Shown in pieces: positions 43,818 through 47,698 of a stretch of 64,000 nt of DNA (its first letter is position 1; each line of letters begins with the position of its first letter). A program made the position numbers and the translations under genes. The stretch spans positions 1-64,000 of the forward strand of contig JAFGXV010000049.1 of the NCBI GenBank assembly GCA_016936455.1, read 5' to 3'. A model generated the notes under the pieces. The model searched no databases and was not told the origin of the DNA. It saw only the letters and a list, made by a program, of their open reading frames with translations. This DNA comes from Desulfuromonadaceae bacterium. GTDB taxonomy: Bacteria > Desulfobacterota > Desulfuromonadia > Desulfuromonadales > Desulfuromonadaceae.

Positions 43818-45224
43818 TTATTCCGGGTTGCCGGAAGGATAGGTGGTGGGTTTCGAGCGCTTGTCGAGGCTGACAGTTTCCTGCCATTCACGCCACAGGG
43901 CCGCGCTGGACATGGTGCCGAACGGCTTGTACCAGAGCTGAACCGTAACGGTCATCTCGCGCTCCTCTGCGACTTGCCCGCCATTGTCCAGTTCTTCCAC
44001 CGGGAAGAAGATGTCAAAACGCTCTTCCACTTCCTTGCCAGGGGGCAGGCCGGTGTCTTCGACAATGGAGCTCTTCTCGTAGGGACCGCGTCCCATGTTG
44101 TTGCCGCGTGCCATCAGCTGAGGCGTCGGCATGTAGATAATTTCTTTTTCGAACAATTCGTCATCGTCTTCCGTAGCTGCTTTTACCGACAGAACCAGTC
44201 GGTTAGGGGTCGGTCAGCCGTCGGGAATGGAATGGCCGGATTTGTTCTTCATCTTGACCTTGACCACGGCCTTCGGCTTCAGGGTGCTGCCGTCAAGCCA
44301 CTGAGAGGCATAGGCATCAACCTCGAAGTCCAGCGCCATTTCCTGCATTTTTTCATCGCTGTAGCTCAGGATCTTGTGGCCCAGACCGCTTTTCTTCATG
44401 TGGCATTCCTGACAGGTCTCATGACCGCCTTCGGCCGTGTAGGCCCACATGTAGCTGCCGTACAGGGTGGCGCACTGGGTCGGGTTCTCCAGCTCCAGGT
44501 TCGGACCCATGCCATGGCATTGGCCGCAGAGGATGGACTCGTCCATGATCAGGCTGCGTTTCATCTTGGTGAATTTCGCGTCGTCGTGTTCACCGTCGTT
44601 GAAACCGTAAACCGTGTCGTGCTGCGGATAGCCATCGGTCCATTTGTGGGTGATGGCCATGCGGTTGTGGCACACGAGGCAGTTGATGTTTAGGCTGGTC
44701 AGGGTTTCCTGGTATGCGTCACGCTTGGCTGCGGCCTTTTTGTTGTCGGGGTCTTTCAGGGCCAGCTTGGCATTCTCATACCAGTCCAACAGGGTGTCGG
44801 CCAACTCGACAGCGACCTTGTCCTCCGCGTCAGCAAGCTGTGGCAGGTGGCACTTCATGCACCCCATAAAATGCTCAACCTTGATGTCCTTGGTGGTTTT
44901 GACGCCGGAGTATTCCCACGACATAAAGCCATTTTTCATGGCGGTGATCATGGTTGCCGCGGCACGGCCGGTTCCGTAAATGGAGCGTGCGTGGGGAGAA
45001 GCTTCCCACTGCTCGTGAGCTTCTTCATGACACTCGATACAGGACGAGGAGTCATACATGGCGATCAGCTCCTTGAGGCTGCTCGCCTTGCCGCTTTTTG
45101 CTGCAATGGTGCCGTCACGACCGACGCCGGCACCCAGCTTGGGGCTGGTGGCCGTGACGCAGGAGGTCGTTGCCAGCAGCGTCATGGCAGCGATACTGAT
45201 AACTCTGAGTAATTTCATCGGCAT
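43818..45224 (-). CDS. extKL: ExtKL-like 5-haem lipoprotein cytochrome, predicted selenoprotein (in-frame TGA at 44214-44216)
   Basis: Lipobox LLATTSC; 5 CxxCH; ...GHSIPDG-[TGA]-PTPNRLVLSVKAATEDDDELFEKEIIYMPTPQ... one continuous frame. Confidence 0.8.
44185..44214 (-). promoter_or_regulatory. SECIS-like hairpin starting at the TGA
   Basis: ACCGAC-CCCT-AACC-GACT-GGTT-CT-GTCGGT. Confidence 0.7.
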
Positions 45225-45300: not shown

Positions 45301-45528
45301 CTAGCAGCCGGTCAGTGCGTCCGCGCCGCCTTTGGCTTTTGATTTTTTAACTTTCATATCAACTTCGGCACCGACATCAATTTTTTTTGCATCTTTACCG
45401 TCAACTTTTACCGAAACGATGTCGCCATCAACGGCGGTAACGGTACCTTCGATTTTGCCTGCAAAGGCTGCGCTGCTGATGCCACCGATGAATGCTGCTG
45501 CTGCGATCAATACGACCAGTTTTTTCAT
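45301..45528 (-). CDS. Small exported protein (75 aa), ExtJ-position
   Basis: Signal peptide; IEGTVTAVDGDIVSVKVDGK. Confidence 0.7.
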   Translation of the reverse strand: MKKLVVLIAAAAFIGGISSAAFAGKIEGTVTAVDGDIVSVKVDGKDAKKIDVGAEVDMKVKKSKAKGGADALTGC

Positions 45529-45609: not shown

Positions 45610-47427
45610 CTAGAACCAGGCTTCGATGGTCAGGTAGGCCTGATCCATGCGGTCGATCGGTGCCCAGAACTGTGCGTTGAGCGGATCGTCGAGGTCATCG
45701 ACATCCACCGGTGCGCCCAGCCAGTTGCCGCTGCCGGTGTAATCGTACTCATAGTGCTGGAAGCCAAGGCGCATGAAGGCGGCACACTTGTCGCTGAGCA
45801 GTTCGCCAACGGGCAGATCCCAGATCATGTAGACTTCGCCAACGTGACCGCGGGTGGCCAGCTTGGACTGAGTCATGTCGTCGTGGCCGGGGGTCATGGA
45901 GATCCAGTACTTGGTGCCGTAGTTGTACTCCAGACCGAATTTCAGGCCCAGGTCATCCAGGTCGTAGCGAACGCCAGCGTAGACGCAGTAGCCGTCTTTC
46001 TCGCCCGGATCTTCCCACCAGGAGCCGAGTAGGGTGGAACCCATCTCGTCAACGCCATCCGGATCGGTATGGCTCCAGCCGCCAGACAGGAAGTAGTTGA
46101 GGTCAGCAAATTTGTTCATGTAGACAAACGAGGTGTGGTAGATGTTGCCCAGATTCTCGGTGTCCAGAGTGCCGTTACTAATAGTGTGATCAGGGTCGAT
46201 AGCCAGTTCCAGCGGGTTGTAGAAAGTGACACCGTCGGGAACGTTGACAATGTTGGCGGCCAGGAAACTCTGGACGTTCAGGAACTGATGACCTTGGTCG
46301 ATAACATCCCAGCTGAGCCCGCCGAAGTCCATATCATCCAGGTTATTGGCGTTGTCCAGGGGCCCTGCTTCGAAGCCACGGCCGTAGCAGAAGCGCAGTT
46401 TGCTGTAGCCCAGCTCGTCGCTGAAGATGTTTTTGAAGCGGTAGCCGAGGGAGATGCCGTCAAAGGCATAGTCCATGAAATTGACCGGTGTCGCCATGCG
46501 CTCGTCGCGACCCATGCGCAGGTTGGCAGGCGGGCCATCAGTCGTCGGACGACGACCAACGGAGAACCAGATGGGCAGATCAAATACGTTGGTCCAGTTG
46601 ATGTAGCCACGGTCGACGCGCAGCACGCTGTCGTCCGGCTGACGAGTGGTGGCACCATCCATCTCGGAGAAGGAGTTCATGGTGTAAGGACCAGCGGTCG
46701 TCGGGTTGCTTTGCATACCCCATGCTTTGTACATGGCCAAGCGACCCTTGAATGTTACGTTCTCAGACACCTTTGCATTGACGCCGAGGCGGAAGCGGTT
46801 GGTGTAGAGTAGGTCGTTTTTGTAAGAGTCTTTTGCTGCCATTTCGTAACCAATGGGGCCCATTGTGCTAACATCCCACGCACCGAGTGCTGCTCCGATT
46901 GCAGCAGGAGTTTGTGGGAAACCAGCGGTGGCTAGCGCATTGAAGTTTTCAATCATGAACTTGCGATCTGCTGCAGAAACACCTTGCATCATGGAGACTG
47001 CACCCTGTACTGCCGTTGTCATCATAGCGGACTTTTCGGCAGTTGTTAGGGTGGGATTGGCATTCAGTGCCGACAAATTGAAACCTTGTCCTTGGATCAT
47101 GTTCGATGTGGCATCAGCAATGCTATCTGCTGCCCAATAAGCTTTGGTGTCGGCATCACTGTAGTCGGCGCGGAAACGGTAGTCGCCAGAGAACGATATG
47201 CGGTCGTTGTTGTCCCATTTGGCTGCTTTGCTTTCCAGCAGTTCAACCACGTCGGCGTTGTCATCGGACGTTTCACGGACTTCGTTCAGTTGCTCTTGCA
47301 GAACACTGAGTTGTTCGGTCAGAAGTTGAATCTGACGGGCCAAATCCTCTGTAGTGGGCGCTGCGAAGCTGGCGGCAGGAACCAGCATCAGGGCCGCGAG
47401 AATCAGGCCGAGGGCTTTTTTCACCAT
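45610..47427 (-). CDS. extI: Outer-membrane beta-barrel, DUF3373/ExtI-like channel with N-terminal coiled coil
   Basis: Signal peptide MVKKALGLILAALMLVPAASFA, coiled coil, barrel-like strands, C-terminal Phe (EAWF). Confidence 0.75.
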   Translation of the reverse strand: MVKKALGLILAALMLVPAASFAAPTTEDLARQIQLLTEQLSVLQEQLNEVRETSDDNADVVELLESKAAKWDNNDRISFSGDYRFRADYSDADTKAYWAADSIADATSNMIQGQGFNLSALNANPTLTTAEKSAMMTTAVQGAVSMMQGVSAADRKFMIENFNALATAGFPQTPAAIGAALGAWDVSTMGPIGYEMAAKDSYKNDLLYTNRFRLGVNAKVSENVTFKGRLAMYKAWGMQSNPTTAGPYTMNSFSEMDGATTRQPDDSVLRVDRGYINWTNVFDLPIWFSVGRRPTTDGPPANLRMGRDERMATPVNFMDYAFDGISLGYRFKNIFSDELGYSKLRFCYGRGFEAGPLDNANNLDDMDFGGLSWDVIDQGHQFLNVQSFLAANIVNVPDGVTFYNPLELAIDPDHTISNGTLDTENLGNIYHTSFVYMNKFADLNYFLSGGWSHTDPDGVDEMGSTLLGSWWEDPGEKDGYCVYAGVRYDLDDLGLKFGLEYNYGTKYWISMTPGHDDMTQSKLATRGHVGEVYMIWDLPVGELLSDKCAAFMRLGFQHYEYDYTGSGNWLGAPVDVDDLDDPLNAQFWAPIDRMDQAYLTIEAWF

Positions 47428-47698
47428 GTTTTTGCCTCCTTTGGTGCGTTGTGATGTGATGGAGCCACCGCCTTTTGGCAGTGTTAAGGCGATAACTCCG
47501 GCTTTATTTTTCTTTCCGTGATTTGGCGTTGTCACCGCGATTCAGCCAAATCTCTTTATATGCGTATAACACAATGTGTGCCAGAATTGTAACCGGTTGG
47601 AATGAATAGCCATTCTAAAGGGAGATGTTTTCTGTTGACTGTTTTGCAGCGATATCACGGTTTCTGTTGCGTAAAATCGCTGTGTTAAAGAACGAAAA

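Follow-up and report, generated by a model that had tools for sequence, protein, structure and literature searches.

Genes and features of the locus

The window, a stretch of 64,000 nucleotides from a Desulfuromonadaceae bacterium, contains a compact minus-strand group consisting of a DUF3373 barrel gene, extJ and extKL (Table 1), an arrangement that recurs in relatives of the same family. The frame of extKL is open apart from a single TGA and terminates in TAA. Standard ORF calling broke the frame at the TGA into a 336-aa product and, 3' of it, a 112-aa remnant; as had been predicted originally, these are parts of one gene whose frame continues to the stop at 43818. We counted five CxxCH haem sites in the joined product (CIECH, CMKCH, CLVCH, CGQCH and CQECH), the number that the prediction had given.

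Table 1. Coordinates of the extKL gene, its recoding signals and the adjoining genes in the window.
Feature	Positions	Strand	Evidence
Barrel-like outer-membrane protein (DUF3373), gene upstream of extJ; called at 641 aa, start uncertain	45610..47535	-	PF11853, 427 bits
extJ, located upstream of extKL; small protein (75 aa) whose N terminus is signal-like	45301..45528	-	NF040942 ExtJ, 66.8 bits (cut-off 52.5)
extKL, pentahaem c-type cytochrome, predicted selenoprotein, 468 aa, Sec337	43818..45224	-	NF040886, 596 bits; PDB MccSep, 597 bits; alignments
In-frame TGA, predicted selenocysteine residue 337, GHSIPDG-U-PTPNR	44214..44216	-	Column conservation; Cys in four paralogues
Favoured candidate SECIS hairpin, +11 to +29 after the TGA: ACCGAC / loop UGGUUCU (44197-44191) / GUCGGU	44185..44203	-	Pairing in 40 sequences; codon constraint
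Alternative longer candidate fold, A of the TGA to +29, same 3' arm	44185..44214	-	Single-sequence minimum-energy fold

The joined 468-aa protein matched the NCBIfam model NF040886, 'multiheme c-type cytochrome (seleno)protein ExtKL', with 596.3 bits over residues 23-453 (curated cut-off 250 bits), and matched PDB entries 9wt8/9wt9, deposited as 'multiheme cytochrome c selenoprotein (MccSep)' and its U325A mutant, with 597 bits (about 1e-178). The proposal that ExtKL proteins are selenoproteins dates from 2007 (PMC1914089); it was repeated in 2018 (PMC5877670; PMC6148476), and a selenoproteome review of 2026 includes the family (PMC13188914). Selenium in an ExtKL-type cytochrome is thus already published and not new, and the family has solved structures, although a literature search for MccSep found no relevant paper. 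The additions made here are modest: a split cluster, Cys paralogues and a corrected hairpin.

Conservation of the in-frame TGA

Among the 147 relatives surveyed, TGA was present in every match that spans the site and exceeds the family cut-off, and a motif scan placed it at the GHxIPDG column; most matches in 396 genomes of the phylum likewise contain one TGA. In the best 80 named-genome loci, which span several phyla (Nitrospirae, Acidobacteria, Krumholzibacteriia and other bins), TGA occupied the GHxIPDG column in 80 of 80. The column that follows GHxIPDG is invariantly Sec or Cys in 45 aligned members, Cys being encoded by TGT in four paralogues (L077, L078, L080 and L081) whose genomes also carry a Sec copy. 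An alignment of homologues, to ask whether the column holds Cys or Sec, was a check that the original prediction had proposed: TGA is near-universal in close homologues and Cys appears in the four paralogues. In cytochromes that are more distantly related, the column holds Thr, Val or Ser and the motif reads GHKIPTG or GHSVPTG.

Four genomes of one genus (G003, G005, G007 and G009) each carry two full-length copies of Sec-type extKL; in G005, DUF3373 precedes one copy and extJ the other. Another ExtKL copy (L022, G116:C82) contains an extra in-frame TAG beyond the Sec site.

The source is a draft genome in 64 contigs (79% complete), a circumstance that could favour reading the TGA as a pseudogene lesion or a sequencing error. 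Such an origin has next to no probability, as the same TGA is found in independent genomes of many lineages, and practically all close homologues, the 80 named loci among them, carry it at the same column. Moreover, amino-acid constraint in the extKL alignment persists beyond the TGA, indicating purifying selection on both sides.

If the TGA were instead a true stop, a 336-aa ExtK with five haems and a separate ExtL would be made, in keeping with the split introduced by gene callers and with the separate names extK and extL given to the G. sulfurreducens genes (PMC6148476). This is very improbable, given that TGA rather than TAA or TAG stands at the column across the family, that the Cys paralogues read straight through, that codons directly after the TGA are constrained at the level of a hairpin, and that solved family members are deposited as a single chain with Sec. 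A restart would also have to do without a convincing ribosome-binding site: by eye, none precedes the in-frame starts 3' of the TGA (TTG at +58 and ATG at +82), consistent with the predicted lack of a second Shine-Dalgarno sequence at the junction. We reject the pseudogene, sequencing-error and split-gene readings, the first two of which are already refuted by conservation.

The host genome contains selA, selB, selD and a tRNA-Sec gene (anticodon tca), all on contig C10, so that the selA, selB, selC and selD genes that had been suggested as a further check are present. The selD gene (L101, L039; contig C10) has an in-frame TGA of its own within an AGUAAK motif, and SelD is probably itself a selenoprotein.

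The family match, the conserved TGA column, the Cys paralogues and the sel genes agree with the predicted ExtKL-like selenocysteine cytochrome, and from sequence comparison the gene is almost certainly the extKL (MccSep) selenoprotein gene. We infer selenocysteine insertion in the Desulfuromonadaceae host from gene structure, family, TGA conservation, Cys replacement, the hairpin and the sel genes.

Choice between two candidate SECIS hairpins

Two candidate folds, which have the 3' arm GUCGGU in common, follow the TGA. The fold beginning at the A of the TGA, which was the hairpin described in the original prediction, is present and is the single-sequence minimum-energy structure (-11.5 kcal/mol, z -2.1). 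Among 40 distinct sequences, however, five lose pairing in its lower stem at +3 and four in its upper stem at +10/+21, whereas the hairpin from +11 to +29 retained 240 of 240 pair cells, including two changes from A-U to G-U; because these sequences were grouped into a SECIS type by their 3' arm, the grouping itself accounts in part for the invariant arm, and it is the 5' side that discriminates.

Codon use points to the same segment. Among 24 full-length Desulfuromonadales-type sequences, a single codon was used at 8 of 130 invariant degenerate columns, of which six are the consecutive residues N341-S346 over the hairpin and one more is G336, which directly precedes Sec; the invariant codon block coincides with +10 to +29 past the TGA. 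Since this block hardly varies, few informative changes bear on the choice of hairpin.

In the E. coli fdhF sequence, the identity of which was checked, GGU lies at +19-21 after the UGA; in this bacterial SECIS these are loop bases. The shorter fold, a conserved hairpin 3' of the UGA with a G in its apical loop, puts its GGU at +18-20 and fits this position, which the GACU loop of the longer fold, at 14-17, does not. In other lineages the hairpin is displaced by several bases (+17-21 pairing with +30-34), with a loop that is mostly CUGGANGU. Pairing is lost in the Cys paralogues L077, L078 and L080; L081 retains 4 of 5 pairs, and its reading frame is truncated by TAA, so that it may be degraded.

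These comparisons make the +11 to +29 hairpin the more likely functional SECIS, and the exact fold originally described lacks their support. That the longer hairpin from the A of the UGA serves instead, perhaps refolding into the shorter one once the ribosome has opened the 5' arm, is unlikely on the broken stems and the loop position just described, even though it is the most stable single-sequence fold and +3 is G in 35 of the 40 distinct sequences; at issue here is which hairpin serves, not whether Sec is inserted. Rfam gave no match at gathering score in the window and chance matches only when the TGA region was scanned permissively, and its SECIS_1 model (RF00031) matched in none of the genomes, controls included, and is therefore uninformative.

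Genomic neighbourhood and localisation

The gene had been described as lying downstream of a barrel gene, matching the extHIJKL conduit. A barrel gene does lie upstream of extKL, but it encodes a DUF3373 protein (PF11853), which is distinct from the Porin_O_P-type porin ExtI, and extI is on another contig. There, on contig C20 (L102), extI and extM are adjacent, with extH, extN, extP and extS around them (the ExtP match is below its curated cut-off, and extO is graded probable only); extJ-extKL is not on this contig. In Geobacter-type relatives extKL stands within a complete ext cluster. The position between extI and extM that membership in an extHIJKLMNOPQS cluster would imply is not found in the host, where the window holds only extJ-extKL and DUF3373. 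The separation from the contig with extH-I-M-N-P-S, unlike the Geobacter-type order, indicates that the ext cluster is split, or extJ-extKL relocated, in this bacterial family, and a partnership with ExtI/ExtM is consequently not guaranteed.

Four relatives of the same family have a DUF3373 gene beside extKL, and in two of these extJ lies in between. It is conceivable, although we hold this only tentatively, that in the Desulfuromonas-like family of the host extJ-extKL left the ext cluster and became coupled to the DUF3373 barrel, in which case the selenocytochrome may serve an outer-membrane partner and a substrate other than those in Geobacter.

A lipobox and a place at the cell surface had also been predicted. 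Residues 19-22 of the extKL product are TTSC, which departs from the canonical [LVI][ASTVI][GAS]C, and none of the 27 homologues examined has a canonical lipobox. The G. sulfurreducens ExtKL has been called periplasmic (PMC6148476), and ExtKL has been cited as abundant in fractions of both the outer and the cytoplasmic membrane (PMC5877670). With a lipobox that is neither canonical nor conserved, and a periplasmic assignment in the literature, the cell-surface location is unsupported.

Predicted structure and a possible role for selenocysteine

An AlphaFold2 model of good quality (pLDDT 88, pTM 0.83) has a helical haem domain and, C-terminal to it, a beta domain; Sec lies in a loop ahead of strand 342-350. 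In a fold search with this model, 5ze8 was the top and only convincing hit, the remainder of the 50 matches listed having low TM-scores; the 9wt entries are not among these 50, probably because they were released after the April 2026 date of the fold library.

SelB with Sec-tRNA(Sec) would recognise the short mRNA hairpin 11-29 nt past the UGA, and selenocysteine would be inserted at residue 337, yielding one five-haem periplasmic cytochrome rather than a truncated product. Sec would then sit in the GHxIPDG-U motif, where the C-terminal beta domain begins, beside the haem domain. The invariant GH..PDG-U and the replacement by Cys argue, at the level of the alignment, for a redox selenol or thiol in this place, and we somewhat favour a redox-active-site role for Sec. 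Most likely, electrons would pass from the haems to a selenol active site, where a small substrate, of oxyanion type or a sulfur/selenium compound, would be reduced; this step may belong to the Ext pathway, which is linked to the reduction of selenite and tellurite in Geobacter. There, loss of ExtI impairs selenite and tellurite reduction, and the functional role rests on the extI mutant and 'preliminary' extKL data (PMC5877670). Localisation, substrate and electron route in the present organism are inferred.

The locus illustrates that standard ORF calling splits an ExtKL selenoprotein, and the survey adds named loci for the Sec site. The four Cys paralogues offer natural controls for asking what a multihaem cytochrome gains from selenium, and the two SECIS placements, together with the split cluster, make the hairpin used by SelB and the outer-membrane partner concretely testable.

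Comparison with known systems

The pentahaem cytochrome c552 of Thermochromatium tepidum (PDB 5ze8) resembles the extKL product in fold (TM 0.51 by query), while in sequence the two are only weakly similar (E 0.00085 over 40 residues). Cable-bacterium pentahaem cytochromes (sPHC/lPHC) have been proposed to belong to the same pentahaem family as ExtKL (PMC11976967), in a paper that does not discuss Sec. MccSep (PDB 9wt8, 9wt9, 9wta, 9wtb and 9wtc) is close across residues 14-457 and has Sec at the aligned position (U325), but comes from another organism. The G. sulfurreducens ExtKL (GSU2937-GSU2936) shares with the gene described here five CxxCH haems, the GHSIPDG-U-PTPNR site, a single TGA and a preceding extJ, whereas in the host extKL adjoins a DUF3373 barrel and extH-I-M-N-P-S (with extO probable) are on another contig.
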